DNA of 46,529 bases from contig QZJY01000015.1 in assembly GCA_003597995.1 (NCBI GenBank), forward strand, positions 1 to 46,529. The letters run 5' to 3'. Within the stretch, counting starts at the first letter, position 1. The number at the start of each line of letters is the position of its first letter. Under the pieces are notes generated by a model. That model saw only the letters and a list, made by a program, of their open reading frames with translations, was not told the DNA's origin and searched no databases. The DNA comes from Dehalococcoidia bacterium. Its GTDB lineage: Bacteria; Chloroflexota; Dehalococcoidia; Dehalococcoidales; UBA1222. Of this stretch, positions 8,018 through 31,168 are shown piece by piece. Both the position numbers and the translations under genes were made by a program.

Positions 8018-8536
8018 ATGTATCCTGTGTTGTTTCCGATTAAGTTAAAAAGTCCCCCAAAGCGCCTTTTCATGATATTGCTTTTTATCACCCTTTCTTT
8101 TTCAGGACTTGTTATTACAAAAGCAAAACTAAACGCCTCAGATATGATCTTATTCTTTCTCTGCTTCGTTATCGCCCTCTTACTATTTACTCTCCCGATA
8201 CATGAATATAGCCATGCTCTTGGTTTTAGGTTAACAGGTGTTACGTGGAAGGTATACCTTACTTATTGTGAGGCTCTTGCTGGATGCCAAGTGTCCCGGT
8301 ACAAATATGTTTGCCTGGCACCTTTGTTTACGCTACTTGCTTCTATATTACTTCTTTTGCTGCTCAATAAGTTTTTTCCAGGATGGCTATTCTACGGCTT
8401 GCTTCTCGGTGGTATTTCCAGTTTTCCGGGCATTACCAGAGATATATATTGGTTCTTTCAGCTTACAAAACTCGACAATAGTTGGATTGTATTTGATCAT
8501 GGCAAATACGCCGATGTTTTCCCTCCAAATTTTTAA
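8018..8536 (+). CDS. DUF3267-type putative zinc metallopeptidase
   Basis: 172 aa, integral membrane. The zinc motif HEYSH (His62, Glu63, His66) lies in LPIHEYSHALGFRLTG, at the end of the second of about five helices. This fits DUF3267 membrane zincins, related to site-2 protease-like enzymes. The third ligand is not identified with certainty. AGGAGGA precedes the ATG by about 6 nt. The gene is AT-rich and on the opposite strand to all its neighbours, splitting the Tad cluster from the SpoIIM-like gene, so it looks inserted. Its end overlaps the TadE-like gene by 4 nt, tail to tail. Confidence 0.75.
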   Translation: MYPVLFPIKLKSPPKRLFMILLFITLSFSGLVITKAKLNASDMILFFLCFVIALLLFTLPIHEYSHALGFRLTGVTWKVYLTYCEALAGCQVSRYKYVCLAPLFTLLASILLLLLLNKFFPGWLFYGLLLGGISSFPGITRDIYWFFQLTKLDNSWIVFDHGKYADVFPPNF

Positions 8537-8979
8537 TCCTCGTACTCATGCTTCGCCGACCCCGCCGCCTTAAATATAAACTCCTTCGGCCACCACGACG
8601 GGTTGTCTTCGGCGGCCGCCAGGCGCGGGACCAGCGGCAGCGCGTTGGGCATCCTGTACGTTATCACGCATGTTACCCAAGCCCCGTCCTCCGTGAACTT
8701 CACGTCGTTGTCGGCGTTAAAGTTCCTGCTTCCCCCTTTTGGGTACGCGGCGTTTTCGGATAGCAGTCCTTCCTGCTTTAAGACGTCCCACGCCACCCGG
8801 CGGGCATTGCTCTCTTTGTGGTTTATCCCGTAGTCGCGGGCCGATTCGCGCGCGGCCATCGCCGCGCAGGCCCTTATCTGGTTCAAGTGGATCATGACGA
8901 AGCCGGCGAAAACAACAAAAAAGATGAGAGGCGTAAGCAGCGCCCAGGATATAATTGCAGAGCCCTTTTCCCCGCGCAC
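8533..8979 (-). CDS. TadE/TadF-like pseudopilin
   Basis: 148 aa. The N-terminus RGEKGSAIISWALLTPLIFF is a short basic leader, a Gly, and a hydrophobic helix, as in TadE-type minor pilins processed by the prepilin peptidase. The remainder is a small extracellular domain ending in KHEYED. GTG start at 8979 with GAGGGGGG upstream; the preceding TadE-like gene stops 3 nt earlier. It would be a minor component of the Flp pilus, made at the end of the Tad operon. Confidence 0.75.
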   Translation of the reverse strand: MRGEKGSAIISWALLTPLIFFVVFAGFVMIHLNQIRACAAMAARESARDYGINHKESNARRVAWDVLKQEGLLSENAAYPKGGSRNFNADNDVKFTEDGAWVTCVITYRMPNALPLVPRLAAAEDNPSWWPKEFIFKAAGSAKHEYED

Positions 8980-8982
8980 CAG

Positions 8983-9447
8983 TTATCCCCCCTCGCTAAT
9001 TTTGAAGTACGCTTTTCCCGTGATTTTCATATCATCCGTCAAGTCGTTCCCTCCTATCAACCGCGTCAGCTTTTTTACGGGCGTGGGGTAGTGATAGGTT
9101 ACCTCACAATATGCGTAGCTCCCGTCCTTTTTTACCTTGATGTCTGTTTTTTCATTAAAGGTAAGCTTTTTCTTCTCAATTTCCTTTACCGGCGTGACGT
9201 TCACCGACCCGACGACGACCTCTTTCGCTTTTTTCCCTGCCTCATCTTTAGCTTTCTTTTCGCCGAAGTGAGCCGCGTAATACCTCGCCCCGGCCCGGGC
9301 GGCCTCTTCGACGACGCTGGATACGTCAGCCATCTGGCCGTACATGACTCCGCTGTAAATCAAAACGATCAACAGGGGAAACAATAAAACCGTCGCCACT
9401 ACCGGTGCGCTGCCGTTTTTGTCTTTATAGAACTTGCAGATACGCAA
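8983..9447 (-). CDS. TadE-like pseudopilin
   Basis: About 154 aa. Leader KFYKDKNG, then SAPVVATVLLFPLLIVLIYSG as the pilin-type helix, followed by VVEEAARAGARYYA, characteristic of TadE proteins, and a lysine-rich beta domain. I prefer TTG 9447 with GGGGGTG about 7 nt upstream; a GTG at 9456 lies inside that site. It overlaps the prepilin peptidase 3' end, so the genes are translated in chain. Confidence 0.78.
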   Translation of the reverse strand: MRICKFYKDKNGSAPVVATVLLFPLLIVLIYSGVMYGQMADVSSVVEEAARAGARYYAAHFGEKKAKDEAGKKAKEVVVGSVNVTPVKEIEKKKLTFNEKTDIKVKKDGSYAYCEVTYHYPTPVKKLTRLIGGNDLTDDMKITGKAYFKISEGG

Positions 9448-9952
9448 AAATATCACCCCCGAACATTTGCGCTAATTGAACCGCGATATACCCAAACAAG
9501 ACAAAAGGCGCGAAAGGCGCCTTGGCAACGTCGAGCTTCTCTATTTCGGGCCGCTGCAGCTTTATCTTTAGCAACAGAAACATAAGACCCTGTTTCTCTG
9601 TCTCCCACGTGCGCCTGAACCCCCATTTCACAAGACGCACCGGGATTGACCACAGCGCCATTAACGTAATAGACAATAAAAACAAGGCGAATATTTCATC
9701 CTGCCCTACGATACTCCCCAAAGCTATAAGCATCTTCGCGTCTCCCGCGCCGAAGACGCCGAGAAAATAGAAGAACAAACCGAACGCCGCCCCCCATATA
9801 AGGCCGTGCATAAAAAAGCCCGGGTTTTTTATGCTCAGCGCCGCTCCAGCGACGACCCCCGCAACGTTCAGCCAGTTCGGTATTCTGTACGAAAGCATGT
9901 CTATGTGCGAAGCAGCCAGTAAAAATACTGAAGCAACTAGATATCCCAACAT
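9425..9952 (-). CDS. A24 prepilin peptidase (TadV/CpaA-like)
   Basis: About 175 aa membrane aspartic protease that removes leaders of Flp and TadE-type prepilins at the inner face of the membrane. The two catalytic aspartates are Asp18 in SHIDMLSYRIPN and Asp71 in FGAGDAKM (GxGD motif). It is short, without a methyltransferase domain, as in Tad systems. Start: ATG 9952 lies 11 nt after GGAGGG; ATG 9970 would sit inside the preceding pilin gene. It overlaps the pilin-like gene region upstream and the TadE-like gene downstream. Confidence 0.88.
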   Translation of the reverse strand: MLGYLVASVFLLAASHIDMLSYRIPNWLNVAGVVAGAALSIKNPGFFMHGLIWGAAFGLFFYFLGVFGAGDAKMLIALGSIVGQDEIFALFLLSITLMALWSIPVRLVKWGFRRTWETEKQGLMFLLLKIKLQRPEIEKLDVAKAPFAPFVLFGYIAVQLAQMFGGDIFAYLQVL

Positions 9953-9959
9953 TTCTTTT

Positions 9960-10124
9960 TTACCCTCCATTCAAAGCGTTGCCCATCTTTTGAGTTGATG
10001 ATTTTATCCCCGGCGCGAGGTTCTTGAATATAATCGAACATAAAATCGCGCAGGCGATCAACACCAGCAACCACTCGACAACCCCTCCGCGTTCGTCTCT
10101 TGTAAAATTACGCGTCTCTTGCAT
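9960..10124 (-). CDS. Short Flp-like prepilin (54 aa)
   Basis: MQETRNFTRDERGGVVEWLL followed by VLIACAILCSIIFKNLAPGI. The DERG-GVVEW motif, with Gly at the cleavage point and Glu four residues on, and the adjoining helix match the other pilins here. It overlaps the end of the GT-C gene by 17 nt and has no strong ribosome site, so coupling is likely. It is easily missed because of its size. Confidence 0.65.
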   Translation of the reverse strand: MQETRNFTRDERGGVVEWLLVLIACAILCSIIFKNLAPGIKSSTQKMGNALNGG

Positions 10125-11535
10125 AAACAACCGCCACATCGTCCCTGTAGACCTCCTTCCAGTTATCTTTCTTTAATATCCAATCCAGCGGGCCGTTCGA
10201 CGGGATGAGCGCCGTCTTAACGCCCCAACCGTTTAATATTTCAACCGGGTTCTCCAGTTGTTCAACATCTTTTCCGTACCCCGGAGCAGCGGCGTGCAGA
10301 TAATCCTTAAACACGCCTTTTCCTGACGATACGTACATGTCCGCCCTGCCGTCAATAAACACCGGTATACCTTCCCATATTAAATAGCCGCCCCACGAGT
10401 AATAGTTGAACACTCTGTCCGTTAGCCTGTTTTCCTTCATGAACGACACGGCTTTAATAGGGAAATAGACGCCTTCCTTCGGGTTGTCCACCCACGCCGG
10501 CGGCCATGACCATGCGCTGAAAATTATGAACACCGCGGCAAGAAAAGCCGCAGCCGCCTTGCTTAAATGGTTTGCCGACACGCCTTTGACGGTTGACGCT
10601 ATTAACAATGCCCCCGCCAAAGTGAAGTAAGGGACGTGGCGCAGGGAGACGAGCCACAGGGCGCATGTTGACGCGGCAAATAATGCTTCAAACAAAGAAG
10701 GCCGCTCTTTTCCCAACGCCGCGACTACAAGCACCAAAAGCAGCAATACTAACGCCGGCAGAAGCACCGGGTTATGAAAGTTGGGCGAAAACCACTCGCC
10801 TACGTTGTTGGTAATCTCCGGGTGCGACGACGCGAAAAATGTGTAATACCAGATCCCCGTCCCCTGCTGGCTGCAAAAACTCGCCAGCAGCATCGCTGCC
10901 GTGGACACGCCCAGTTTTTTGTGTGCTTCGGTCCCTCTTTCCAGCGGCGCACCCCTAAATAAATAGGGATATACGAAGACCCCTGCCGCAAACAGCACGC
11001 CCAGCGGGGCTGAACTGTGGATGTTGGCCCATACGAGCGCGACAAAGGACAGCAGATAAAGCTTTTTCGGGTTGTCTTTCGCGGTTAACACCAGGTAAGC
11101 AGTGAGGGCAAATAAACCCTGCGCCATCACGTGCGGCCTCGCGTCCCAGGCGTAGCTTGCAGCGATCAAGGCAAGCGCAGAGAGCATGGACGCAAGTGGT
11201 AGAGAGCATCTCCTTACGAGTAGTCCAAATAACGACAGAGCATAAGCGATTATCCCGGCGCACGTCAAAAGCCACACTCCCCACTTCCCGGCGTAAGCGT
11301 AGCTCAAGTAAGCCAACACCTCCCAAAGCCATTCGTGCGCAGTCCAATGAGCTCCGCAAGCCGTCCAGGAATAAAAGTCAGAAACGGGAATCATGCGGTT
11401 CTCTATAATCCACTGTCCGGTTTTGACGTGCCATAGCGTATCTCCTTCGATCAATGGACTCCCCGCGTCAACGCAGATATATGCCAATGCCGCAAGGAAC
11501 AAAATATGCCAGACATTGATTTTAACTTTTCCCAA
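10108..11535 (-). CDS. GT-C type membrane glycosyltransferase
   Basis: 475 aa with 10 or more transmembrane helices. The first loop has DAGSPLIEGDTLWHVKTGQW with acidic residues typical of GT-C enzymes, which move sugars from polyprenyl phosphate to acceptors outside the membrane. The C-terminal soluble part contains YYSWGGYLIWEGIPVFIDGR, seen in many such membrane proteins. It follows a small flippase-like gene with a 14-nt overlap. A polyprenyl-phosphate glycosyltransferase is nearby at 12362-13060. Together with pilins on both sides this suggests pilin glycosylation. TTG start 11535 after GGGGGTGG. Confidence 0.75.
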   Translation of the reverse strand: MGKVKINVWHILFLAALAYICVDAGSPLIEGDTLWHVKTGQWIIENRMIPVSDFYSWTACGAHWTAHEWLWEVLAYLSYAYAGKWGVWLLTCAGIIAYALSLFGLLVRRCSLPLASMLSALALIAASYAWDARPHVMAQGLFALTAYLVLTAKDNPKKLYLLSFVALVWANIHSSAPLGVLFAAGVFVYPYLFRGAPLERGTEAHKKLGVSTAAMLLASFCSQQGTGIWYYTFFASSHPEITNNVGEWFSPNFHNPVLLPALVLLLLVLVVAALGKERPSLFEALFAASTCALWLVSLRHVPYFTLAGALLIASTVKGVSANHLSKAAAAFLAAVFIIFSAWSWPPAWVDNPKEGVYFPIKAVSFMKENRLTDRVFNYYSWGGYLIWEGIPVFIDGRADMYVSSGKGVFKDYLHAAAPGYGKDVEQLENPVEILNGWGVKTALIPSNGPLDWILKKDNWKEVYRDDVAVVYARDA

Positions 11536-11848: not shown

Positions 11849-11871
11849 TTTTAACCACCTCCTTTACAAAA

Positions 11872-11899
11872 AAAAGAGCCGGGGTTCCCCGGCTCTTTT
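11872..11899 (-). terminator. Terminator after the flp pilin gene 1
   Basis: Perfect 13-bp stem (AAAAGAGCCGGGG and its complement) with a TT loop, then TTTTT on the minus strand. It is identical in sequence to 13082-13109, with the same 26 nt of pilin 3' end beside it. Confidence 0.8.
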
Positions 11900-11901
11900 C
11901 T

Positions 11902-12099
11902 CTAATACGCCCTGATGCCGTTCACCGCCGCGGCGGCGTTTGCTCCAGCGTCGTTGATAGATGTTCCGACGTTGCCGGGGCTGTTCTTTAGTTTTGCGTA
12001 AGCGACCGCCGCGATTATTACCCCGGCGATTATGGTCACTACCCATTCAACCGCTCCCCCGGATTCATTAGCCAGGAAGGTTTTTAGAGCATTAAACAT
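11902..12099 (-). CDS. flp: Flp pilin 1
   Basis: 65 aa major Tad pilin. The leader MFNALKTFLANESG precedes GAVEWVVTIIAGVIIAAVAY: Gly14 is the likely cleavage point, with Glu18 and an adjacent aromatic residue (Trp rather than the usual Tyr). The mature peptide is about 50 residues, almost all helix. It is nearly identical in DNA and protein to pilin 2, a tandem duplication. A terminator follows immediately, so this copy ends its own transcript segment. Confidence 0.9.
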   Translation of the reverse strand: MFNALKTFLANESGGAVEWVVTIIAGVIIAAVAYAKLKNSPGNVGTSINDAGANAAAAVNGIRAY

Positions 12100-12148
12100 A
12101 AGTATTGCCTCCTTTCAAACTTTTTTAAAAATTCTTTCGGATCTTTTC

Positions 12149-12346
12149 TTAATACGGTCTTATACCGTCCACCGCCTTTGCGGCGTTTGCTCCAGCGTCG
12201 TTGATAGACGTGCCGACGTTGCCGGGGCTGTTCTTTAGTTTTGCGTAAGCGACCGCCGCGATTATTACCCCGGCGATTATGGTCACTACCCATTCAACCG
12301 CTCCCCCGGAATCGCCGGTAAGGAAGGTTTTTAGAGCACCAAACAC
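12149..12346 (-). CDS. flp: Flp pilin 2
   Basis: 65 aa, GTG start after GGAGG. Leader MFGALKTFLTGDSG then GAVEWVVTIIAGVIIAAVAY. It differs from pilin 1 at only a few residues (leader, and KAVDGIRPY against AAVNGIRAY at the end). The pair could be alternative subunits or a gene-dosage duplication. It lies just after the GT2 gene. Confidence 0.9.
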   Translation of the reverse strand: MFGALKTFLTGDSGGAVEWVVTIIAGVIIAAVAYAKLKNSPGNVGTSINDAGANAAKAVDGIRPY

Positions 12347-12361: not shown

Positions 12362-13060
12362 TCATAAAACTTTTTTAAAAAATCTTTGCGCCGGATCTCT
12401 GCGAACCAGCCCGACGACAGACCCAAGCATCCGGCTTCCGTCTCCCCACATCTTTACGGTTGAACCCGGCGCGTCGCTCCACTCGACAGGCACTTCAGCT
12501 ACGTCAAACCCCATGCTTTTAGCCAGCAGCAACACCTCTACGTCGAAAGCAAACCGGTACTCATAAGAACGTGAAAATATCTCTTGCGCCGCGTCTTTTG
12601 TGAACATCTTAAAACCGCACTGCGTATCTTTGTACCGCAGTCCAGTAGCCGCGCGGACAAACAAGGCAAACATCTTGCTTGCCAACCGGCGCGCCGGCGA
12701 CCAGTCGTGGATAATCGACCCGGGCATGTACCTTGACCCGATTGCTATATCCGAGCCGTCTCTTATCGCCTTCATCAACATTGCCGCATCCTTAATCGGC
12801 GTGGCCATGTCGGCGTCCGTAAACAACACCACGTCGCCCTTTGCGGCTAGCGCGCCCCTGCGCACCGAGTACCCCTTGCCGTAGTTTACCGAATTGCGCA
12901 GAACTGTCGCCCCGTATTTAGTCGCCAATTCAAACGTTTTATCGGTTGAACCATCGTCCACGACAATTATCTCGCCTACAGGTCCATATGTCGTTAACTG
13001 CCGTAAAGTCTCCGGAAGCCTTTGTTCCTCGTTGTACGCCGGGACAACCACGCTCAGCAT
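12362..13060 (-). CDS. GT2 polyprenyl-phosphate glycosyltransferase (DPM1/Alg5-like)
   Basis: 232 aa with the GT-A fold: nucleotide-sugar motifs VVVPAYNEEQRL (residues 4-15), VDDGSTDKT and FTDADMATP (DAD metal-binding motif), then GSRYMPGS and QCGFKMFTKDAA typical of dolichyl-phosphate sugar synthases. There is no C-terminal membrane domain, as in Alg5/DPM1 soluble or peripheral forms. It would load a sugar onto polyprenyl phosphate on the cytoplasmic face. It is set between pilin genes 3 and 2, and its partner flippase and GT-C gene follow pilin 1. Confidence 0.88.
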   Translation of the reverse strand: MLSVVVPAYNEEQRLPETLRQLTTYGPVGEIIVVDDGSTDKTFELATKYGATVLRNSVNYGKGYSVRRGALAAKGDVVLFTDADMATPIKDAAMLMKAIRDGSDIAIGSRYMPGSIIHDWSPARRLASKMFALFVRAATGLRYKDTQCGFKMFTKDAAQEIFSRSYEYRFAFDVEVLLLAKSMGFDVAEVPVEWSDAPGSTVKMWGDGSRMLGSVVGLVRRDPAQRFFKKVL

Positions 13061-13109: not shown

Positions 13110-13111
13110 CT

Positions 13112-13309
13112 CTAATACGCCCTGATGCCGTTCACTGCATGTGCGCCCCACGCGCCGGCGTGCCATATAGAGTCTCCAATTCTACCCGGCGAGTTTTTCA
13201 ACTTCATGTAAGCGACCGCTATGATTATTACCCCGGCGATGATGGTTACCACCCATTCAACGGCGACGCCGGATTCGTCAGTTAGGAAGATTTTTAGAGC
13301 ATTAAACAC
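13112..13309 (-). CDS. flp: Flp pilin 3 (divergent)
   Basis: 65 aa from GTG 13309, which has GGGGGTGAT upstream. Leader MFNALKIFLTDESG then VAVEWVVTIIAGVIIIAVAY. The C-terminal half is distinct from pilins 1 and 2 (RIGDSIWHAGAWGAHAV). It shares the last 26 nt and the terminator exactly with pilin 1, suggesting duplication or gene conversion of the 3' end. Confidence 0.88.
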   Translation of the reverse strand: MFNALKIFLTDESGVAVEWVVTIIAGVIIIAVAYMKLKNSPGRIGDSIWHAGAWGAHAVNGIRAY

Positions 13310-13375
13310 AAGTATCACCCCCTTTTTTATAAAAAACTATCCCTGAAAACCCATGCGGCTCGTCCCGGAGGAAAT

Positions 13376-13954
13376 TCACAAAGTCGGCACGACCTGCGCC
13401 GTGCCCTTTGCCTTTACCGGTATCTCGCGCTCTTTTTCGTCAACGCCAACAAGCCACCCGGCCAGGGCGCCGCTCATCAGAAACGCTTTAACCCTCGCGA
13501 CCGCTTCGTAGGCGTAAGAATCGCCGTAACAATGCACCCCCTTTTTTTCTTTATAATAGGTGTCCGGGATTACGTCGCTTTTTATGGAGCCCGGTTCCGT
13601 CCGGACGCCCCATTTGTTGCTTTTCGGCATGTTCTTGCCGTATGTTTCTCCTGCGTCTTTATCGGCTCTGTTTTTGTCATACACACTCATATGGACGGCC
13701 TTAAGCTTCTGCTCGATCCTATCCGGCACGCCGTCCCCGTCCTCGTCGATTGGGACGTAATCATACTCGCACTGAGCCCGAGCGGTCATAACCCCGGCTA
13801 GAGCCGCCGCGTCTACAGCCGTCCGCAGCCTCGCCCTGACAGCGTGAGCGCGCGAAAAATCAAACGTGACGACGCCGAGCACCAGAAATATAATCATGAA
13901 ATATAAAAAGAGCACGGCCATACCGCGCTCGTCTTTGATAAAGTTCCTGAACAT
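13376..13954 (-). CDS. TadG/TadE-like pilus protein
   Basis: 192 aa. KDERGMAVLFLYFMIIFLVL is a class III-type leader plus helix, followed by RARLRTAVDAAALAGVMTA, the hallmark of TadG-type N-termini (Flp pilus assembly, putative TadE/G-like). The rest has DEDGDGVPDRIEQKL, an EF-hand-like acidic loop that may bind calcium. It is shorter than classic TadG, without the von Willebrand A domain. It would sit at the base or tip of the Flp pilus. Confidence 0.8.
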   Translation of the reverse strand: MFRNFIKDERGMAVLFLYFMIIFLVLGVVTFDFSRAHAVRARLRTAVDAAALAGVMTARAQCEYDYVPIDEDGDGVPDRIEQKLKAVHMSVYDKNRADKDAGETYGKNMPKSNKWGVRTEPGSIKSDVIPDTYYKEKKGVHCYGDSYAYEAVARVKAFLMSGALAGWLVGVDEKEREIPVKAKGTAQVVPTL

Positions 13955-13969: not shown

Positions 13970-14131
13970 TCATTTAACTATCCGGTTGAACGACTCCCCC
14001 AGTTCCCTGGAAAAATTGTTCGTCCCGGGTTTTATCCTTTTAAAAAACACTCCTACCATTATTGCCGCCACTATAACCAAAACTATCCACTGCACCGCCA
14101 TGCCGCGTTCGTCTTCTAAAAATCGCCTCAT
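13970..14131 (-). CDS. Short prepilin-like peptide (53 aa)
   Basis: MRRFLEDERGMAVQWIVLVI then VAAIMVGVFFKRIKPGTNNF. The leader ends in DERG as in the other pilins, but the glutamate after the cleavage point is Gln. ATG 14131 shares ATGA with the TadC stop and has GGGAGGGGGG upstream, so expression is well supported. Probably a minor pilin. Confidence 0.7.
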   Translation of the reverse strand: MRRFLEDERGMAVQWIVLVIVAAIMVGVFFKRIKPGTNNFSRELGESFNRIVK

Positions 14132-14970
14132 AGCAACCCCCCTCCCGTCTGCATCTGGGTGATTATCATCGGCGCCAGAGTTAATATAATAGACGGGGTA
14201 GCCATTATGAACAACGCCAACTGCATCTTCTGCTCCGCCGCCTTCGCCTGGCCGATTATCTCGGCCCTTCTCCGTATTCTTGCATCGCTGACGGCCGTTT
14301 GCAGGGATTCTACTATTGAGACCCCATATTTCCGGGCCTGCAACACGGCGATCGCCAATCGCCGGACGTCCGGGACGCCCGTTCTCTCAGCCAATCCGTC
14401 GAATATTTGTTCAAACGGCAGGCCGATCCTGGCTTTCGCGATGCAAACGTTAAGTTCGTCGCGAAGCGCGTATTTTTTGTTCATCCCAGACGCCGTCCAC
14501 TCCAGCGATTTTTCCAGCGAGAGGCCTCCGGCCTGCGCCGCGGAAAGCCGGGAGGCGACCGTCAGGAACTCTCTCTTCATTTTCCGGCGGCGCTCAGCAA
14601 CCTGAAAGTTGAGCCACCAGTCCGGCAGTTTTGGCGTCAATATGAAAGCCAGAGCCCAGTATTCGCCCAAGAAAGAGGCAAATACCATTATTATCGAAAC
14701 GCCAAGCGCCGCAAATCTTACCGCGTCGTATGTCTCGGGCGTCAGCCCTTTCGGCCGCCCGGCCAACTCGATCAATTCTTTTGCGTCAGCGGGTCCGAAC
14801 AGTTTCACAAGAAAAGAATGTCTTCCCAGCAGATTCCGTAAAACGGCGGCTGGGTCGCCGGGCTGAAATTTACGCTCAACCAACAGAGGGTTTGTGGTCG
14901 CGGCAGCGCGCAGCGCGCACATGGCTGCAACCACAGTAAAAAACGCCAGCGCTCCCATTAAGATAATCAA
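14128..14970 (-). CDS. tadC: TadC-like platform protein (T2SSF domain)
   Basis: 280 aa inner-membrane platform protein with N-terminal helices, a cytoplasmic T2SSF domain (FLTVASRLSAAQAGGLSLEKSLEWTA..., RRLAIAVLQARKYGVSIVESLQ) and C-terminal helices ([20 protein letters not shown]). With TadB it couples the CpaF ATPase to pilin insertion. Its ATG overlaps the TadB stop by 4 nt (ATGA). Confidence 0.88.
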   Translation of the reverse strand: MIILMGALAFFTVVAAMCALRAAATTNPLLVERKFQPGDPAAVLRNLLGRHSFLVKLFGPADAKELIELAGRPKGLTPETYDAVRFAALGVSIIMVFASFLGEYWALAFILTPKLPDWWLNFQVAERRRKMKREFLTVASRLSAAQAGGLSLEKSLEWTASGMNKKYALRDELNVCIAKARIGLPFEQIFDGLAERTGVPDVRRLAIAVLQARKYGVSIVESLQTAVSDARIRRRAEIIGQAKAAEQKMQLALFIMATPSIILTLAPMIITQMQTGGGLL

Positions 14971-15857
14971 AATTCCTCAACCCCTTTGATAATCGTCCAC
15001 ATTAACCACGCACCAAAAATATATAACACGACGCACCCGCCGAGCACGTTTTTACCCAGCGGATGGTTGAACAGAACCTTAATCAAGTCGGGCGCAACGA
15101 AGAACATGGCCACAATATATGCCAGAGGCATCGCTCCAACTATCAATCCGGACATTTTCACACCCTTTGTCTCCTGGTCAACCTGGTACCTCGCATTCGT
15201 TCCTTCTTTTATATTTCTTATTACCGACCTGATTAGTTCTAATGATTCTCTTCCGCCTACTTTCATATACAGCTCCACAGCGTCCCTCAATTCTTCGGTC
15301 TCAACGCATGGCACGCGCCTCGCCATGCCGGCAAAGGCTTCAGACGGGGGAACATTCGCATACTCAACCGCCATATAAACGCGGGACAGTTCATCCTGCA
15401 CTTCTCTGGGAGCTACGCGGGCCGTCTCTCTCACCGCTTCTTTTATACCCATGCCGGACTCAAGACAGCCGAGGAGTATGTCCACCACAAACTCCATGTT
15501 GGTTTTAATTGCTTTTACTTTTGCCTTTGTCACAAATGTAGACGCCGGGCGCGGCGCAAACATGAACCCCAGCATCCCCAAGGCTACACCTATGGGTACG
15601 CCGCCCAGCAGGCACCCGGCCATCGCGCTCACCACAGCGCCGATTACCGCCGCCGTGAACGCCGCATCGGGGGACATCGCTGTGTCGCGCGACACGCCCC
15701 ATATACGATACAAATCTTCCATAACGCTTCTTTTCGCTTTCGACAACCTGGCTCCGGGCTCCCGCTCAACGAGCGGGTTGCGCGATGCATAACCGGCAAC
15801 GAAATACGCGGCTGATAACACTGTAAAAAACGTGAGCATTCCGACAACCAATAACAT
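14967..15857 (-). CDS. tadB: TadB-like platform protein (T2SSF domain)
   Basis: 296 aa. N-terminal helix, a pair of helices around 70-110, the T2SSF region (MEFVVDILLGCLESGMGIKEAVRETA..., LRDAVELYMKVGGRESLELIRSVIRN) and three C-terminal helices. Pairs with TadC as in all Tad loci. Its start overlaps the CpaF stop by 1 nt. Confidence 0.88.
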   Translation of the reverse strand: MLLVVGMLTFFTVLSAAYFVAGYASRNPLVEREPGARLSKAKRSVMEDLYRIWGVSRDTAMSPDAAFTAAVIGAVVSAMAGCLLGGVPIGVALGMLGFMFAPRPASTFVTKAKVKAIKTNMEFVVDILLGCLESGMGIKEAVRETARVAPREVQDELSRVYMAVEYANVPPSEAFAGMARRVPCVETEELRDAVELYMKVGGRESLELIRSVIRNIKEGTNARYQVDQETKGVKMSGLIVGAMPLAYIVAMFFVAPDLIKVLFNHPLGKNVLGGCVVLYIFGAWLMWTIIKGVEEF

Positions 15858-23545: not shown

Positions 23546-24909
23546 AAAAACCCCTCGCTTTCCCTGCGCCTCGTTTTCCTGTCCGACCGCACTTTTACCG
23601 TTACGGCGTGCTTAACTGTTTCATGAGTCCCCGAGAGCAAGCAGGTTCCCCTCGGCATCTTCGGTATTCTTCTGAACATATCTTCAGTTATGTCAGCTTT
23701 CACTCCCTGCAGCGACGACAACTGGTCCGGCTCAAGCGCAAATATAAATCTTGTGTTACACTGAGAAATGGTCTTTTTATCTATATCCAGCGGGTTTTGG
23801 GTCACCATTACGACGCATATCCCATAGTGCCGGCCAATCCTTACGTTTTCTCTGATGACTTGCTTGCAAGGCGATTCCCCCTCTTCCGGCGCCAAAAGGT
23901 GTGCCTCATCTAATACCAGAACGTAAGGCGGGACTTTCTTGTCCAACCGCAGTTTCTGTAACTCACGCAGCGTCGCGCCGGTCACCAGTTGCAACTGGAG
24001 CAGGTCAAGCCTTGAGCAATCTACATTCACAGTTAAGCCTTTTTTTACGAGTCCGGCCCAGTCAAGCTTCTTTCCCATCACACCGAGGAAATCGTGCCTG
24101 CGGATGGAAGACTCCGCGCGCGACGCCGCCATCCGCATCTGGTAGCCGTCCAGCCCGAGGGATGGGGCGTCAGACTCCATCTTTCTCAGGAGGTCGGCCA
24201 AGTTGAACTCCGCCCTCCGGCCTTCGGCTACCTCCCTTTTGAGCGCTAGAAACGAAAAATTGAAGAGTTCATAACCCGACGTACCGCGCAGAGACGCCGC
24301 CAGTGCCACGGCTTCCTCATTTGTAAGAGAAGACAGTTGTACCGTATAGTCCCGGCCCGGTCTTACAACTACGCCGCTTAAGTCTTGTGCCAGGTTTGTA
24401 TACTCGTCCTGGGAGTCTATCACAACCGCGGGTATCCCCAACCGCGACAGCTCTTCCAGGATTATCCCCACAGTATACGATTTTCCGACGCCGGTAGTTC
24501 CACCGATAAACACATGTCGGATCAATATTTCGGGCCTCAGCAAGACGCTACACGCTCCGGACTCTCCGATATAAATAGCCCGCCGGCTGTTTTCACCAAA
24601 CCCCACCGCCTGCGCTATAACCTCCCCTCCTGCCACGTGGACCGACGCTCCCGGGCGGGCGGGTTCTTTAGGCTCGGACAGGGATATCGCTCTCCCTTCT
24701 TCAAAAAACTGCTCCAATGCGCTTGCTTCATACATGCTTCCGGACGCCGTCCTGAAAGCGTTGATTACCCGGCCCAAAACAAAAGAGTTACTATTTACAG
24801 GAGTGGTAACATACGAACCCGGCGGCAGGCTTTCGTTCGACTCAAACTTAAACACATCAAACGTAGCGCCTTCTTTGACAACGCCGACGGCGCTTGCTTT
24901 AAGTTTCAT
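23542..24909 (-). CDS. HerA/VirB4-superfamily ATPase (DUF87-type)
   Basis: About 455 aa. An N-terminal HerA-type barrel (residues 1-110) precedes an FtsK/HerA ATPase core. Walker A is GGTTGVGKSYT (137-146), Walker B VLVLDEAHLL, and the arginine/sensor region is MVTQNPLDIDKKTISQCNTRFIF. HerA enzymes translocate DNA as hexamers; in archaea they work with NurA, which is absent here. Placed between VirB6-like and VirB1-like genes, it may be the coupling or motor ATPase of this secretion system. Start ATG 24909 after GAGGTGATG. Confidence 0.85.
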   Translation of the reverse strand: MKLKASAVGVVKEGATFDVFKFESNESLPPGSYVTTPVNSNSFVLGRVINAFRTASGSMYEASALEQFFEEGRAISLSEPKEPARPGASVHVAGGEVIAQAVGFGENSRRAIYIGESGACSVLLRPEILIRHVFIGGTTGVGKSYTVGIILEELSRLGIPAVVIDSQDEYTNLAQDLSGVVVRPGRDYTVQLSSLTNEEAVALAASLRGTSGYELFNFSFLALKREVAEGRRAEFNLADLLRKMESDAPSLGLDGYQMRMAASRAESSIRRHDFLGVMGKKLDWAGLVKKGLTVNVDCSRLDLLQLQLVTGATLRELQKLRLDKKVPPYVLVLDEAHLLAPEEGESPCKQVIRENVRIGRHYGICVVMVTQNPLDIDKKTISQCNTRFIFALEPDQLSSLQGVKADITEDMFRRIPKMPRGTCLLSGTHETVKHAVTVKVRSDRKTRRRESEGFL

Positions 24910-24925
24910 TATCATCACCTCAAAA

Positions 24926-25220: not shown

Positions 25221-25242
25221 GCCGGGTACGCGCGTACCCGGC
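25221..25242 (-). terminator. Hairpin with embedded palindrome copy 2
   Basis: A 22-nt near-perfect palindrome (GCCGGGTACG / CGTACCCGGC) followed by TTTTTCTTTG on the minus strand, then the peptide gene's ribosome site. Its core GGTACGCGCGTACC (25225-25238) is the repeated palindrome. Confidence 0.7.
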
Positions 25243-25380: not shown

Positions 25381-27366
25381 CTACCTGTGCCTATACCCGT
25401 CCAGCGACGGCTGTTGTTTCGGCTGCGACCACCTCTCCGCAATCGCTGGGGACAACCCCGGCGAAACCACTTCCGCCCCCACTACCGTCGCTGCTCTGCC
25501 TATACTGCGCGCCGCGTCTTTTCCGCCGGTTACCTGTTTAAAGGCTTCTTTTACGCCAACCCCTTCTTCCTTTCTTACTTTGGCCGTTTGATACGCCAGG
25601 CCGCCCACGGCGCCAACGGCGCGCCCGGCGGCGCCGCCCACCGCGGATGCAAGGTTGACCATATGTTGTCCTCCCGGTACCGCCGCGAACATCACCGCAG
25701 CCGGCGCCGCCAGCGCCTTCGCCCCCGCCGCGCCGACCGCCCTCGACGTACTCACCACTTGCGAGAGCCTGGCGCCCTGCGCTCCATAAAGATTTTGCGT
25801 CGCCGAACCGGAGCCAAGCTCGCCCAATCCTGACGCGCCCGAAACGCTCGTTCTTGCAACACCGACGTTGCCGGCCGGCCCTGACGATACCGTCGTCGAA
25901 CCGGGGCCAAACGCGCCGAACGAGCCGCCGGCAGGCGATCCGCCGGGCGGACTTATCGGAGGTGGAGACGGCGGCGCTTCGCGCCCTCCAAGCGAAAGAC
26001 CGCCGGATGGGCCTCCGCTGGGCGGCTGAACCGGGTGTTTTCTTGGGGCTGCCGTCGAGGCAAGCCTCCCCATCCCGACCATCGCGCCGAGCCCCAACGC
26101 GCCCATAACCTTACCCGCCGCGCCTGATTCGTCAATGCCGGACATGCGGGTGAACAGTCCCTGCACCGAGTTCCTGAGCATCTCGGCTATAGGAAGCAAT
26201 ATCATAAGCCAAACGAGAAGTTGAAACCAATTCTGAACATCGCAAAATGTTAAAAACAATAAAAAAACAAGCGCGTAAGCGGTCTGCATGAAAGCGTTTG
26301 ACAATAACTCCCCCAGCCATATCCCGGCCGCGTTCACGTTCTTGTTCATGGCCCACATCCAGGCCATTATCGGCGTGAACACGTAGATAGCCATCAAAGC
26401 GTACTTGCGGATCAAAAACAGTATGTTGAGGTGAAAAATTATCCCACATAATATCAGCTTTACGATAGCCGTCGCCAGGACTGACCCGGTTATCAGGCCC
26501 TTCATGACGCCGCCCTGCAGGCTTACTTCTTTTAAACCGCCTGCGCCTATATTCAGCACATTTTCAGCAACGCTCAACATGCTGCCCACCATCGCGATGT
26601 TGACGCTGAACACCACGTAGAAAAGTATCGGCGCGGCGGCAATTATGAACAGCGCCCATACCCACCTCCACATACTCTCTACGGCTTCCGCCCGGTCGGC
26701 TGGTTTGAAGGCAGCGGCGAAAAGCTTAAAAGCCGTCATAATAATTGCTATCAGCAAAAGGGCGCCCATCACCGCGGACATCCCTTTGTACCAAACGTTC
26801 AACCTGTCCCATTCGGTGCGGGTAAACGGAGACATTTCCTTGTCTTCTTCCGAAACCCCGATATTGAAGATAAGTTTATCAAGAGATTTCAGGTCAGCCC
26901 CATTCTCAAGCCACTCAAAAAACACGACGAAGCCGTTTACCACGCCGGCTATGGCTCTTTCCAGCATTCCCCCTTCGTCCTTCGTCGGCCTTCTGGGTTT
27001 CTCGGGCACGCCCGCGTCCGGCGGCGGTACGTCTGGCGGTTTATAAGGCTGTACTTCTACATCCGGCGTAAACTTCCCGACTCCGTAATGCAGTCGGTAG
27101 TAAAGCGTTTCATCCGGGTCGGCGGTTCTGTCTGTGTACGAGCCGTCCACCTGCTGCACTTCGGCGATATCAACATGGCCGCCGCCCGGTCTCAGCGAGC
27201 GTTCGATCGTAAGCGTCTTACCCTGCTCCCCGTCGGTCCAGGTCACGGTAACACTCCCGTCCGGGTTCCTGACGGCGCCTGTTATCGACGCTGCGAAAGC
27301 CGGCAACGGAGCGTTCAGCGCAAACAAAAATACAAGTATTAAAAATATCACTTTTTTTCTACTCAT
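25381..27366 (-). CDS. VirB6/TrbL-like polytopic channel protein with fibronectin-like N-domain
   Basis: About 661 aa. Signal peptide KKVIFLILVFLFALNAPLPA with AFA cleavage, a fibronectin III-like domain (residues 27-105: GAVRNPDGSVTVTWTDG..., LYYRLHYGVGKF), a Pro-rich linker, then about six helices from 150 to 400. A long Gly/Ala/Ser/Pro-rich C-terminal tail (430-660) is low in complexity. VirB6/TrbL proteins form the inner-membrane channel. ATG 27366 is preferred because it starts the signal peptide; its GGAGGT site is 16 nt away, rather far. Confidence 0.8.
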   Translation of the reverse strand: MSRKKVIFLILVFLFALNAPLPAFAASITGAVRNPDGSVTVTWTDGEQGKTLTIERSLRPGGGHVDIAEVQQVDGSYTDRTADPDETLYYRLHYGVGKFTPDVEVQPYKPPDVPPPDAGVPEKPRRPTKDEGGMLERAIAGVVNGFVVFFEWLENGADLKSLDKLIFNIGVSEEDKEMSPFTRTEWDRLNVWYKGMSAVMGALLLIAIIMTAFKLFAAAFKPADRAEAVESMWRWVWALFIIAAAPILFYVVFSVNIAMVGSMLSVAENVLNIGAGGLKEVSLQGGVMKGLITGSVLATAIVKLILCGIIFHLNILFLIRKYALMAIYVFTPIMAWMWAMNKNVNAAGIWLGELLSNAFMQTAYALVFLLFLTFCDVQNWFQLLVWLMILLPIAEMLRNSVQGLFTRMSGIDESGAAGKVMGALGLGAMVGMGRLASTAAPRKHPVQPPSGGPSGGLSLGGREAPPSPPPISPPGGSPAGGSFGAFGPGSTTVSSGPAGNVGVARTSVSGASGLGELGSGSATQNLYGAQGARLSQVVSTSRAVGAAGAKALAAPAAVMFAAVPGGQHMVNLASAVGGAAGRAVGAVGGLAYQTAKVRKEEGVGVKEAFKQVTGGKDAARSIGRAATVVGAEVVSPGLSPAIAERWSQPKQQPSLDGYRHR

Positions 27367-27396
27367 GAAAACAATCCCGACCACCTCCTTTTTTCC

Positions 27397-29241
27397 TTAA
27401 ACCGCGCTTTCCCCCGGCGTCGTCGTAACAAATGGCTGCTCGTACTGCGTAAACGATATCCTTACCGCCGTCGTCGCCCCGGCCAGGGACAGCAGGCATT
27501 CCCCAGGCACGAAATCTTCCAGGTAACGCCTCGCGCCGGATGCAAGGTGGAACGCTTCGACCACATCGTCTATTACTGTAGGCGATTGCCTCAGCAGCAT
27601 TATCGTCGCGCAGTTGGAAATTACCGCCCTCCCTTTCTCGCGTCCCAGGAATTCTTCTATGTGCTGGGACGCCACCAGGAGAGAGGTGTTATGTTTCCTC
27701 CCCCTGCGCGCCACTATTTCCAGAAATTCCGCCGACTCGTTATACTTCATAAACATCCATGCCTCGTCAACGACTATCCGCTTTCTCACGTGTCGCTCTT
27801 TCTGAGCGAATTTCTGCCACGCCCATCCCAGCACCACGAACGTCGCGTAGAACCTGGTAAATTCGTCCCTGATGTCGCTTAAGTCAAAACACACCACCGG
27901 AGCGTTCAGATTGACGCTCGTCTGGCAGTCGAACATCCCCAGGCTTGATCCAGCCAGAAACGGTTTCAGCAACACCGCAAGGTCGCTGCAACCCGGTTTA
28001 GCGATCAACCGTTTATACAAATCCGACAGCGTCGGCATTTTTTTTCGCACCGGGCTAATGTAGTGCTTGCCGTCTTCCGATTTCCCTCCGGGCTCGTAGA
28101 GGCTGTCGGGGTTTGATTTTATTCCCCGGAAGTCGTACTCTTCTCTCAACGACTCTTCCAGCATCGCCGCTTCGCGCGGGTCCAGCCCTCGGCCGGCGGA
28201 GTTCTGGACCACCGCCGAAAACAAAGCCCTTATTTCGGATACTTTGTCAGTTATATTTATAACCTCGCGGCCGTCCTTCTCTTCTTCCGTCTCCAGATCC
28301 AGAGGGTTTATCCCGGTTGGCCGGCCCGGAGCAATTTTAACCACTTCTCCGCCCGCGAGTTTTTCCACCATGCTCCGGTACTCACCTTCAGGGTCGATTA
28401 TGACCGATTTAATGCCGACCAGCGTTGACCTGGCAACAAGAATTTTCAGCGCGGTGCTCTTTCCGCTGCCGGAGAACCCGAAGCAAGCCATATGCTGGTT
28501 CGGCAAATGCGGAGGGCCGATGAAAGAGTTATAGAACACCGGCGCTCCGGTGAACATGCTGTACCCTATAAACACCCCTCCCGGATGCGAAAGGTCCGGG
28601 TTTGATACGGGCATCATGGCCGCCACGCCTCCTGTGGTCAGGTTGCGGTTATAGTCCTGTATAACGAGGTTTCCCACCGGCAGAGCGCTCTTCAAGCCAT
28701 CGACCTGGCGCATCACCAGAACGCGCAAGTACGCCGAGTTCCTCGCCAATATATCATCTAATATGTTGCTTTTTCTTTCGAGTTCTTCTTCAGAAAAAGC
28801 GTGCAGCGCAATAACGACGGTGACGTAAAACATGCGCTCCCTGTTCGTTTGGATCGCCGAACGCACGGACTCCAGGTCGCCGATGACGTTTTCCAGGTAA
28901 GGCAAACGCAGGATATTACCGGCCTTCATGTCGACCACCCTTTGCGCCTGAGCTGAAGCAACCTTTTCTGTTAGCTTGTACACTATCTTCCGGTCAGGGA
29001 TCGGATCAACATGCACTGAAAGGTCCACACTGCCGAGAGAAAATATTCTATCCAGCCAGGCGACGCTAATTTCTCTGGGATACACTGTCAAAACATAAAC
29101 CCGGCAGTATTTGGATGCGCCTAGCGCAAGCATATCGAACCGCTCTTCCAGTCCGTCCGGGCTGAACAAATCATGAAGCCTGGGCACGTTTTTTTCTATA
29201 TCGATTTCTGTTTTTTGAGGTTTCTTAAACGCCTTAAACAT
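27397..29241 (-). CDS. virB4: VirB4/TraE-family conjugation ATPase
   Basis: 614 aa. Residues 20-215 match the N-terminal VirB4 domain (YVLTVYPREISVAWLDRIF, TVVIALHAFSEEELE). The ATPase part has Walker A GFSGSGKST (255-263), IDPEGEYR, Walker B RIVVDEAWMFM and ASQHIEEFL. VirB4 is the universal energiser of type IV secretion systems, driving pilus and channel assembly. It overlaps the preceding TraC-like gene by 8 nt. This is the strongest evidence that a conjugation-type system is present. Confidence 0.92.
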   Translation of the reverse strand: MFKAFKKPQKTEIDIEKNVPRLHDLFSPDGLEERFDMLALGASKYCRVYVLTVYPREISVAWLDRIFSLGSVDLSVHVDPIPDRKIVYKLTEKVASAQAQRVVDMKAGNILRLPYLENVIGDLESVRSAIQTNRERMFYVTVVIALHAFSEEELERKSNILDDILARNSAYLRVLVMRQVDGLKSALPVGNLVIQDYNRNLTTGGVAAMMPVSNPDLSHPGGVFIGYSMFTGAPVFYNSFIGPPHLPNQHMACFGFSGSGKSTALKILVARSTLVGIKSVIIDPEGEYRSMVEKLAGGEVVKIAPGRPTGINPLDLETEEEKDGREVINITDKVSEIRALFSAVVQNSAGRGLDPREAAMLEESLREEYDFRGIKSNPDSLYEPGGKSEDGKHYISPVRKKMPTLSDLYKRLIAKPGCSDLAVLLKPFLAGSSLGMFDCQTSVNLNAPVVCFDLSDIRDEFTRFYATFVVLGWAWQKFAQKERHVRKRIVVDEAWMFMKYNESAEFLEIVARRGRKHNTSLLVASQHIEEFLGREKGRAVISNCATIMLLRQSPTVIDDVVEAFHLASGARRYLEDFVPGECLLSLAGATTAVRISFTQYEQPFVTTTPGESAV

Positions 29242-29947
29242 GGTAGAATTCCATCCCCCCTGCCGCGACCAGTTCCGAGGGTTTAACCGTGCGACCGCGG
29301 TTTAATATTCTGTGAAGCAAGTCAACTATTTCTTCCGTTCTCAACATTTCCGCCGTCACGCCGGCGCGGCTGAGCGATTCCATAAAAACGCCGGCGCGCC
29401 TGATCAACTCCGCCCTTGTCCGTTCAAACGGTTCTATCGTGTCGTTCATTATAACGACGTAGCTTCGCCTGCTATAAACAGCCCTGTCTTGCATTATATT
29501 TTCAAGGCTGCTTGCTATATGCAAGGCGTACTCTTTCAACTCCGCCGGAGCATTGCCGCCTGTGCTCTCATATATCTCAGAAATTGACTGCTTTGCGTCA
29601 ACCATTTCAGTTGTGACAATAGTTTGTATTGGAAAACCGAGCGCAAGCGATAGCGACATTAGAGCGGATTCAACCGAATGCTGCTCAGGCTCTGACATGA
29701 GATGATAATCAACCGACCCGACACGTATTACTGCCCGGTACCGGTTTCCGGTTAAAAGAATTACATCGTTTTTTATGTCTTCTATGTCCCATAGTTCTTT
29801 CAAATTTAACTTTTTATTTTTCCTTATTTTAACGTTTGTCGGGTTTGCCGTCCTACCTCCGGTGGCCTTGTTCTCGGCTACTTTTTTTAGAAAAGGCGTT
29901 AACGCGCCCACCAGGATTGCTAGAATCACAAATATTATTCCGACCAA
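29234..29947 (-). CDS. Membrane-anchored TraC-like conjugation protein
   Basis: 237 aa. One N-terminal helix (VGIIFVILAILVGALTPFL), then a soluble domain: VILLTGNRYRAVIRVGSVDYHLMSE, SLALGFPIQTIVTT, SRRSYVVIMNDTIEPFERTR. This looks like the VirB4 N-terminal or TraC-type domain found next to VirB4 in Gram-positive conjugative elements. It is not the missing half of VirB4, which has its own N-domain. TTG start with GGGGTGAT upstream, 2 nt after the PrgI-like stop. Confidence 0.72.
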   Translation of the reverse strand: MVGIIFVILAILVGALTPFLKKVAENKATGGRTANPTNVKIRKNKKLNLKELWDIEDIKNDVILLTGNRYRAVIRVGSVDYHLMSEPEQHSVESALMSLSLALGFPIQTIVTTEMVDAKQSISEIYESTGGNAPAELKEYALHIASSLENIMQDRAVYSRRSYVVIMNDTIEPFERTRAELIRRAGVFMESLSRAGVTAEMLRTEEIVDLLHRILNRGRTVKPSELVAAGGMEFYHV

Positions 29948-29949
29948 GT

Positions 29950-30246
29950 TTAATCATCACCCCGCAAGACAAACTGTTTTCGGCGGCGGCAGTAGTTGAT
30001 TAGCAGCACTACATACCTATCGAGCTTTACGGAGTAAAGCTCTACAAAAGCAAGCGATACTCCGGCTACGGCAAACGGCGCGCTCAAAAAAACCCTGACC
30101 GGCAACGGCAGGGTTTTTGGTAAAAGCAGGACCAACACCGTTAATATGACGCCTATTAGCATATAGACAACTTGACGGACCGAGAATATACCGCCGAACG
30201 TTTTTTCCTCCTCGTTCAAATCAAGCGGGACAGGGAAAAACCGCAT
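29950..30246 (-). CDS. PrgI/VirB3-like membrane protein
   Basis: 98 aa. A short soluble N-terminus (FFPVPLDLNEEEKTFGGIFS) and two close helices (RQVVYMLIGVILTVLVLLLP, VFLSAPFAVAGVSLAF) then RRRKQFV. This is the PrgI layout, the Gram-positive counterpart of VirB3, which binds VirB4 at the membrane. Order PrgI, TraC-like, VirB4 is typical. Confidence 0.82.
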   Translation of the reverse strand: MRFFPVPLDLNEEEKTFGGIFSVRQVVYMLIGVILTVLVLLLPKTLPLPVRVFLSAPFAVAGVSLAFVELYSVKLDRYVVLLINYCRRRKQFVLRGDD

Positions 30247-30270
30247 TACTGCACACCGTCCTTTCTGAAG

Positions 30271-30615
30271 TTATTGCAGCTTTTGGCCGATGCCCAGTAT
30301 CGCTCCAGCGACGAACATGGCCGCCCCGAGGATTATCCCTCCCAAGCCGACGTAGAACAAACCGCTCATGGCGTCTGCTTTACGGTCGGGATTTATGCCG
30401 CTGAGCATCATCTTTATTGCTATCAGACAGACAGCTAAAAACAATATTGCGCCGCCGAGCGGCATGCCGATGGTTTTGACGATTTCAGCTATTTTGTCTC
30501 CCAGCGTTGTCGCGTCAACCGGTGTCACGGGCTCGGCATACGCTGCGGCGGCGAAAGGCATGGTCAAAACGTAAAACCAAAAAGCGCGGCAAAAGATGTT
30601 TTGAATGTTAAACAT
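30271..30615 (-). CDS. VirB2/TrbC-like pilin or small channel subunit
   Basis: 114 aa. Signal peptide region AFWFYVLTMPFAAAAYAEP, then two helices (GMPLGGAILFLAVCLIAIKM and GLFYVGLGGIILGAAMFVAG). VirB2-type conjugative pilins have this size and two-helix pattern. Ribosome site AAGGAG 10 nt before ATG. It is first in the PrgI-VirB4 run. Confidence 0.7.
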   Translation of the reverse strand: MFNIQNIFCRAFWFYVLTMPFAAAAYAEPVTPVDATTLGDKIAEIVKTIGMPLGGAILFLAVCLIAIKMMLSGINPDRKADAMSGLFYVGLGGIILGAAMFVAGAILGIGQKLQ

Positions 30616-30637
30616 GTTTCATTGACTCCTTTCTTTT

Positions 30638-31168
30638 TTAATTTTCAAATTGACCGGCGAAAGATTTAATCAATCCTAAAATTACAGGTATCAAAAAGTA
30701 AACCAAAAGTCCAAATGCGCTCATTAACAACCCTCCGAATCCTACGCGCTTTACTAGACCGATTCCGAACAATCCACCAACTGCGAGCACGGCAAGGCTA
30801 ACCAACATACCAAATATGGCTAGCTGGACTATTATACTTCCCAAAGCCACGTTCGCGCCGCTTATTATGTTTTCAACTTTCCCGACGAACTCTCCCGGAG
30901 ATACGGGTTTAATTCCAAAGTTTCCGTTTGTTGCAGATGAACCTTTTTGGCTTTGGCCTCCATTATTGGGTTGGATTTTTTGAGGCAATCGAGTCTCTTC
31001 TTTCCCGGCGTCGCTCTTATCAACAGCAGTTTCAATAACAGCCGGCGGCGGGGCGCCTTCCGCCCGCTCTTCGCCATAAAAAAGCGCGGCTATCAGGATT
31101 GCGATTAAAAACATTTTTGCTGCAATCAAATTAAAGTTCTTATAGTCTATTTTCTCCAGACAAATCAA
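30638..31168 (-). CDS. Second VirB2-like two-helix protein
   Basis: About 176 aa. N-terminal hydrophobic stretch MFLIAILIAALFYG, a polar Gln/Ser/Gly-rich linker (residues 50-95), then two helices (VQLAIFGMLVSLAVLAVGGLF, GLLMSAFGLLVYFLIPVILG). The final part aligns by eye with VirB2-type subunits. TTG 31168 follows AAGGGGGTG by 6 nt and is preferred to GTG 31177 inside that site. Possibly a second pilin or an extension of the channel. Confidence 0.6.
   Translation of the reverse strand: MICLEKIDYKNFNLIAAKMFLIAILIAALFYGEERAEGAPPPAVIETAVDKSDAGKEETRLPQKIQPNNGGQSQKGSSATNGNFGIKPVSPGEFVGKVENIISGANVALGSIIVQLAIFGMLVSLAVLAVGGLFGIGLVKRVGFGGLLMSAFGLLVYFLIPVILGLIKSFAGQFEN

Follow-up and report, generated by a model that had tools for sequence, protein, structure and literature searches.

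Do the genes for a Tad pilus and those for a type IV secretion system (T4SS) that lie side by side on one strand form a single machine, and what kind of DNA carries them? The question is raised by a block at 8533-31177 of contig QZJY01000015.1 (C15), which was analysed over its entire length of 46,529 bp (the window) and belongs to a draft genome of 1.8 Mb and 71 contigs binned as Dehalococcoidia (Chloroflexota). The first-pass annotation had proposed one machine of a layout not known before, in which a HerA-like ATPase might stand in for a VirD4 coupling protein. We checked the gene calls by Pfam and NCBIfam profile scans and by direct reading of the sequence. The window contains most of a mobile element whose source is a bacterium of Bacillota type. 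We consider it likely that the block forms the transfer region within a large integrative and conjugative element (ICE), inserted in a tepA-like gene of a Bacillota-type chromosome, which would transfer by conjugation with the Tad pilus as its mating pilus. The two gene sets do belong together by synteny; the replacement of VirD4 by HerA and the novelty of the layout were not borne out, and a single transcript is doubtful.

As shown in Table 1, all the parts named earlier were found in their places and all are on the minus strand. The T4SS (25381-31177) is of the Gram-positive type. Genes of the block are closely spaced, and the largest gap between listed neighbours is 173 nt and contains a pilin. 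The genes that had been called 'TraC-like' and 'VirB4' encode, respectively, the N- and the C-terminal half of a single VirB4, which is split into two genes in most relatives as well. The ATPase half was 47% identical to a protein of Thermoanaerobacterium butyriciformans, and the solved VirB4-like chain 4ag5 matches the VirB4 family profile at 7.8e-55. Both VirB2-like genes are present, the one at 30271 by Pfam and the one at 30638 by its size, its position and a 48-bit match at the same position in T. butyriciformans. The supposed VirB1-like wall hydrolase is a two-domain SLT and M23 protein, which ends 46 nt before the first TadZ gene, as had been noted.

The Tad set (8533-21774, minus strand) is complete, with CpaF/TadA, TadB, TadC, Flp pilins, an A24 peptidase, TadE/G and TadZ. 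All five pilin-like peptides were confirmed, of which two are very short, and the three TadZ/CpaE-like proteins are P-loop proteins, the one at 19135 being weak by profile. CpaF matched TIGR03819 at 1e-58 and VirB11 at 2.2e-38, both below the equivalog cut-offs. No secretin (RcpA) was seen in the window's Tad set, as expected for a Gram-positive system. From these genes, Tad is predicted to be a surface pilus for mating.

According to the first-pass annotation, the two blocks would be only neighbours if relatives carried them in separate places. Instead, many genera of Bacillota have the pairing in synteny. Relatives were found by a VirB4 alignment scan and their loci were then annotated; some of these contigs end before CpaF. 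The conserved series VirB2-PrgI-VirB4N-VirB4-VirB6-hydrolase-TadZ-CpaB-(TadZ)-CpaF-TadB/C is present whole or largely so in Thermoanaerobacterium, Desulforamulus, Desulforadius, Desulfotruncus, Pelotomaculum, Clostridium oryzae, Alicyclobacillus and several metagenome-assembled genomes (MAGs). The Tad block is located before the T4SS in Geobacillus, Paenibacillus, Bacillus and Aneurinibacillus, and the two are directly contiguous in Vallitalea pVpro. An even draw of 299 Bacillota genomes gave 40 VirB4 loci over threshold. A CpaF-family ATPase was encoded within 35 kb in half of them (20/40), every time on the same strand (20/20), while about 2.3 were expected on either strand; these 20 loci were scored by CpaF, which alone does not establish a whole Tad set at each. 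The pairing is real, and the two parts probably work as one mating apparatus. The association appears to be old or recurrent, with parts exchanged; the idea that T4SS and Tad descended together, never separating, was considered and found only partial support in tree congruence.

Several relatives (L078/L158-L160, L092, L093, L118 and L141) have two CpaF/TadB/TadC sets downstream of one T4SS. Copper-amine-oxidase-like secreted proteins are encoded near the doubled sets, and similar secreted proteins are encoded on contig C38 of the bin. On an Aneurinibacillus plasmid (340000-379999; L163-L164), a block of Tad genes and the start of the T4SS is present as two tandem copies that lie 20 kb apart and have almost the same profile scores. 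Many Patescibacteria (L094-L157, Saccharibacteria and others) also have the PrgI-VirB4N-VirB4 trio, with VirB4 split in the same way; no Tad genes were detected in its flanks there, and PrgI scores were unusually high in Saccharibacteria.

The ends of the element were located by a 17-bp direct repeat, CCATCGGCGTGCCTATA, one copy of which is in the window and the other on contig C39 (Table 1). The 3' part of the tepA-like gene lies on C39 directly after a large serine recombinase gene, at the ICE end opposite the window's att site, and joining the flanks at the 17-bp core gave an uninterrupted TepA-like frame. The sequence ACCCATGACACTACCCTACG occurs in inverted orientation just inside both ends. 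The att repeat, the restored frame, the inverted-repeat ends and the recombinase together point to integration by the serine recombinase, which places the block within a predicted ICE. The element thus has an integrase, bounding att repeats and a T4SS with VirB4. Terminal redundancy, as in a circular plasmid, was looked for and none was found.

Tetranucleotide profiles of the bin's contigs were compared using the first 20 kb or less of each, C16 (read as N) being left out. C15, C39, C62, C35, C4 and C38 formed one composition cluster (r 0.92-0.96 with the window; next contig 0.84) and sum to 129 kb. If all six are part of it, the ICE is about 124 kb long. Proteins of C35 and C38 matched proteins of the elements of Desulforadius, Desulfotruncus and other relatives; about 358 kb of the bin's other contigs, used as controls, matched these elements little. 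Homologues of the RecD2-like helicase of the window occur near the T4SS/Tad loci of the Tobar18m MAG and T. butyriciformans, and also in pGspE55-1.

The first-pass annotation saw no VirD4-type protein. That is true of the window, but C62 of the same bin (r = 0.95 with the window) ends in a VirD4-type gene, in which positions 35-312 of PF02534 are followed by a group II intron reverse transcriptase and then by positions 313-442 and TraG-D_C. Its product was 48% identical to VirD4 on the T4SS/Tad contig of the nearest relative, T. butyriciformans, and two more C62 proteins matched genes near VirD4 in the Tobar18m MAG and T. butyriciformans. A VirD4 domain shares contig and strand with the T4SS/Tad locus in T. 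butyriciformans, Desulforadius, Desulfotruncus, UBA3567 and others. The coupling protein expected of an ICE is therefore present, on a contig linked by composition and relatives' homology and not by physical joining. Its absence from the window is a matter of contig ends; a coupling protein apparently absent from a draft contig can be an assembly effect. The intron itself occupies 15730-19926 of C62 (L187), exactly between VirD4 profile positions 312 and 313, with its reverse transcriptase/maturase open reading frame (ORF) at 17632-19356.

Several points weigh against the reading of the block as the transfer region of an ICE with a Tad mating pilus. The six contigs are physically unjoined, and sequence ties only the two that bear att copies. 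The VirD4 gene is interrupted by the intron insertion. The relaxase profile PF03432 had no match in the bin and no relaxase was identified there; an ORF upstream of VirD4 on C62 was linked to Replic_Relax only via one distant relative, and profile comparison gave no support for this assignment. Near some Bacillota T4SSs (in Oscillospiraceae, pBpOF4-01 and Planococcus), CpaF is lacking. VirB4 and CpaF trees agree only partly (Mantel r 0.36, p 0.0015, n 16), so some elements may have exchanged their Tad block. A strong terminator-like hairpin (25242-25221) lies between VirB6 and HerA; because it precedes HerA, transcription of the T4SS genes may be separate from that of the HerA-hydrolase-Tad genes, and a single transcript of the block is doubtful. 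The hairpin and the partial tree agreement, along with the two CpaF sets of several relatives and the lack of Tad genes in the 10-20 kb examined around the T4SSs of pBpOF4-01, the Planococcus plasmid and Oscillospiraceae, would also suit a Tad pilus carried as cargo, that is, an adhesion or biofilm pilus dispensable for DNA transfer and kept as a neighbour since both are useful to the element. We judge this unlikely: adjacency and gene order recur in Clostridia, Desulfotomaculum relatives and Bacilli, the 20 pairs share one strand, and type IVb pili of other conjugative elements are needed for transfer (PMC5297154).

A machine independent of a relaxase, in which HerA replaces VirD4 as coupling protein or DNA pump in a manner akin to archaeal Ced import, is hardly credible. 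HerA does lie inside the block, its gene overlaps that of the hydrolase by 4 nt, the protein has weak similarity to CedD and CedB, and the search for a relaxase was negative. VirD4 is nevertheless present on C62 and in relatives with long contigs; therefore HerA is not needed as a substitute, and it was rejected in that role once VirD4 was found. HerA was found at no relative's T4SS, the protein resembles HerA helicases more closely, and its nearest homologues (31-38% identical) belong to Chloroflexota loci that also contain DNA methyltransferase- or Vsr-like genes. It is also very unlikely that the contig truly belongs to the Chloroflexota genome and that the element was gained across phyla. 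The assembly assigns the contig to that bin, but its composition is unlike the rest of the bin. A search of nine Chloroflexota relatives gave no homologue of the flanking GH65 gene; its matches in the searched set were all from Bacillota, the best being T. butyriciformans (37%). Beyond tepA, C39 continues with uppP-like and then ftsK/spoIIIE-like genes by ORF reading, and we take these flanking genes, tepA included, to be of Bacillota type. Because of the foreign composition, the tepA/ftsK neighbourhood and the GH65 matches, the contig looks misbinned within a Chloroflexota MAG, and the most likely origin is a misbinned Bacillota fragment; no close genome was identified.

For the ICE with a Tad mating pilus, we propose the following working. 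After excision, the element would move by conjugation: VirD4 would feed DNA to a VirB4/VirB6 channel, the SLT/M23 hydrolase would open the wall, and CpaF, TadB/C and TadZ would build the Flp pilus. This pilus would hold donor and recipient together, as may be compared with the type IVb pili of PAPI-1 and R64 (PMC5297154). The GT2, EamA and GT-C genes may glycosylate the pilins.

The usual view is that Gram-positive bacteria conjugate without mating pili, and their T4SSs otherwise lack a VirB11 function. CpaF might serve the T4SS as the missing VirB11. We suggest very tentatively that in Bacillota elements the Tad CpaF and TadB/C are working parts of conjugation, supplying both the VirB11 function and the pilus, so that one chimeric apparatus would be found in many genera. 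The recurrent linkage on one strand (20 of 40 loci) is compatible with this. With Tad syntenic with the T4SS in many Bacillota, a role of the pilus in Gram-positive mating is directly testable in cultured strains.

HerA is an ATPase added to one such T4SS/Tad machine. Both of its domains scored over cut-off (Table 1), a Walker A (GGTTGVGKS) and a Walker B (VLVLDEA) motif are present, the protein matches HerA structures, and the base composition of the gene is like that of its neighbours. The reported overlap with the hydrolase gene was confirmed, and HerA is probably co-expressed with the hydrolase, with a putative accessory role. No HerA homologue was found at the T4SS in 42 genomes with related T4SSs, where the few hits were VirB4 itself, and no relatives emerged when viral contigs were scanned with HerA, CpaF and VirB4. 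HerA thus appears to be a local accessory of the T4SS/Tad layout. In Desulforamulus putei, the remnant of an ATPase that follows the hydrolase (L086 17232-17441) was considered as HerA and rejected, as it matches the VirB4 profile instead. There is no partner nuclease adjoining HerA as in a HerA-NurA-type defence pair; its neighbours are the wall hydrolase, a small secreted ORF and VirB6. The nearest homologues in Chloroflexota (L051 16940-18448, L053 2317-3912, L054/L055) are near DNA methyltransferase- or Vsr-like genes or a 726-728-amino-acid (aa) protein without a PADLOC match, with which they possibly form an uncharacterised defence set; no other window protein matched around them.

The small secreted-protein gene at 24981-25259, directly after the hairpin and between VirB6 and HerA, is a paralogue of that at 2534-3001 (both minus strand), and the two have a common upstream segment including the ribosome binding site (RBS). 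The N-terminal part of the ORF at 24981-25259 was rejected as coding since it reads through the hairpin; translation probably begins at an internal ATG preceded by a good RBS.

The 'dedicated sugar pathway' noted earlier comes down to three genes, namely the GT2 gene, an EamA protein of 99 aa, which is a possible polyprenyl-sugar flippase, and the GT-C-like gene without a Pfam match. They may fit a polyprenyl-phosphate-sugar route for pilin glycosylation. None of the three was found at the relatives' T4SS/Tad loci, and the sugar genes are local additions to the layout.

Table 1. Features of the window, with the profile matches or other grounds for each assignment.
Feature	Position	Strand	Grounds
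ParB-like protein, ICE backbone	3501..5054	-	ParB_N 1.6e-10; homologue inside T. butyriciformans T4SS/Tad locus
TadE-like	8533..8979	-	PF07811 0.0078, below cut-off
TadE	8983..9456	-	PF07811 1.6e-5, over cut-off
A24 prepilin peptidase	9425..9970	-	PF01478 1e-13
Short Flp-like pilin (fifth)	~9960..10118	-	direct reading; start uncertain
GT-C-like polytopic membrane protein (putative)	10108..11535	-	hydrophobic pattern; no Pfam or NCBIfam match
EamA half-transporter, 99 aa	11522..11821	-	PF00892 3e-8
Flp pilin	11902..12099	-	direct reading
Flp pilin	12149..12346	-	direct reading
GT2 glycosyltransferase	12362..13060	-	PF00535 3.7e-30
Flp pilin	13112..13318	-	DESGVAVEW motif
TadG-like minor pilin	13376..13954	-	Pfam Tad 8.1e-8
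Short Flp-like pilin, 53 aa	13970..14131	-	direct reading
TadC	14128..14970	-	T2SSF 4.1e-7
TadB	14967..15857	-	T2SSF 1.3e-7
CpaF/TadA ATPase (VirB11 superfamily)	15857..17203	-	T2SSE 3.9e-31
TadZ/CpaE-like 3	17206..18486	-	MinD_arch 5.2e-13, below cut-off
CpaB/RcpC	18483..19121	-	RcpC 2.7e-5, SAF 6e-4, below cut-off; profile including relatives
TadZ-like 2 (weak)	19135..20319	-	ParA 8.1e-4, CpaE_hom_Actino 5.7e-4, both below cut-off
TadZ/CpaE-like 1	20320..21774	-	CbiA 6.8e-9; position after hydrolase conserved
SLT + M23 peptidoglycan hydrolase	21821..23545	-	Pfam SLT 1.8e-11, M23 7.1e-24
HerA-family ATPase	23542..24918	-	Pfam DUF87 1.1e-15, HerA_C 1.5e-13
Terminator-like hairpin between VirB6 and HerA	25221..25242	-	9-bp stem, T-rich tail
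VirB6-like polytopic channel protein	25381..27384	-	position and profile including relatives; Pfam T4SS_pilin weak
VirB4 ATPase half	27397..29241	-	NCBIfam CD1110 8.5e-78
N-terminal half of split VirB4	29234..29947	-	NCBIfam CD1110 VirB4 positions 12-173
PrgI (VirB3-like)	29950..30246	-	Pfam PF12666 2.3e-11
VirB2/T4SS pilin-like	30271..30615	-	Pfam T4SS_pilin 1.9e-7, TrbC 2.2e-4
VirB2-like small membrane protein	30638..31177	-	size and position; no Pfam match
ICE backbone protein	34681..35643	-	no Pfam match; 50% identity over 253 aa, T. butyriciformans locus
RecD2-like helicase, ICE backbone	38575..40851	-	Pfam
att core CCATCGGCGTGCCTATA	43420..43436	-	chromosomal tepA-ICE junction; second copy C39 16532-16548
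5' part of chromosomal tepA-like (ClpP-type) gene, ICE-interrupted	43420..43884	-	Pfam CLP_protease 8-92/182

Other genes of the six-contig set encode DnaN, SSB, a ribonucleotide reductase-like protein, RecJ, an RNase H-like protein, a DEAD/SNF2-type helicase and an XcyI restriction endonuclease. IS200/IS605-type TnpA and TnpB and a second TnpB-like gene are located at 649-2514 and 37333-38439 of the window. On the opposite strand, beside the Tad end, are a NUDIX-domain protein with an N-terminal membrane segment (5177-6322, plus strand) and a DUF3267 putative zincin (8018-8536, plus strand). The window's first 410 bp are closely repeated at the end of C38, which probably explains the assembly break at the window start.

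Tad is the type IV filament family most often found on plasmids in one survey (PMC6668835), and its pairing with a T4SS has been described before, so the layout is not new. In Sulfobacillus thermotolerans, plasmids pL15/pY0017 and an integrated element of Kr1 have T4SS and Tad (T2SS-like) homologues together; like the element studied here, their conjugation region has VirB4, a TraG-like coupling protein, a lytic transglycosylase and MinD-like, CpaF/TadA and TadB/TadC proteins (PMC6803676). This likeness is one of description and not of sequence, and the Sulfobacillus system differs in its plasmid backbone and relaxase, with no HerA or glycosyltransferase mentioned in the available part of that account (PMC6803676). 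A linear plasmid of Cutibacterium acnes likewise has a tad locus adjoining VirB4 and other conjugation genes in a Gram-positive host, a functional link being left open by its authors (PMC5696575). Unlike the window, it is from Actinomycetota and encodes FtsK/TraB- and TcpC-like proteins, and the available part of its description reports no HerA (PMC5696575). The PAPI-1 ICE of Pseudomonas aeruginosa and R64 require a type IVb pilus for transfer (PMC5297154), but their hosts are diderm and the pilus is of the R64 Pil type, not Tad. The archaeal Ced system does not fit: the window has a T4SS of the Gram-positive PrgI/CD1110 type and no recognised CedA-like component, the similarity to CedD/CedB being weak and at the level of the ATPase. 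Also close to the window, in the same or a permuted order, are the loci of T. butyriciformans, Desulforamulus, Desulfotruncus, Desulforadius, Alicyclobacillus pAACI01, Geobacillus pGspE55-1, a Paenibacillus plasmid and Vallitalea pVpro, which share with it the split VirB4, PrgI, VirB6, hydrolase, TadZ, CpaB, CpaF and TadB/C. In contrast to the window, no HerA or GT2/GT-C was found at these loci, and in several of them the CpaF/TadBC set is doubled. How widely the syntenic pairing extends across Bacillota may be less familiar, judging from the open-access papers that the literature search covered; the T4SS-Tad pairing itself is already known and widespread, and what is new here is the addition of HerA and the glycosylation genes.

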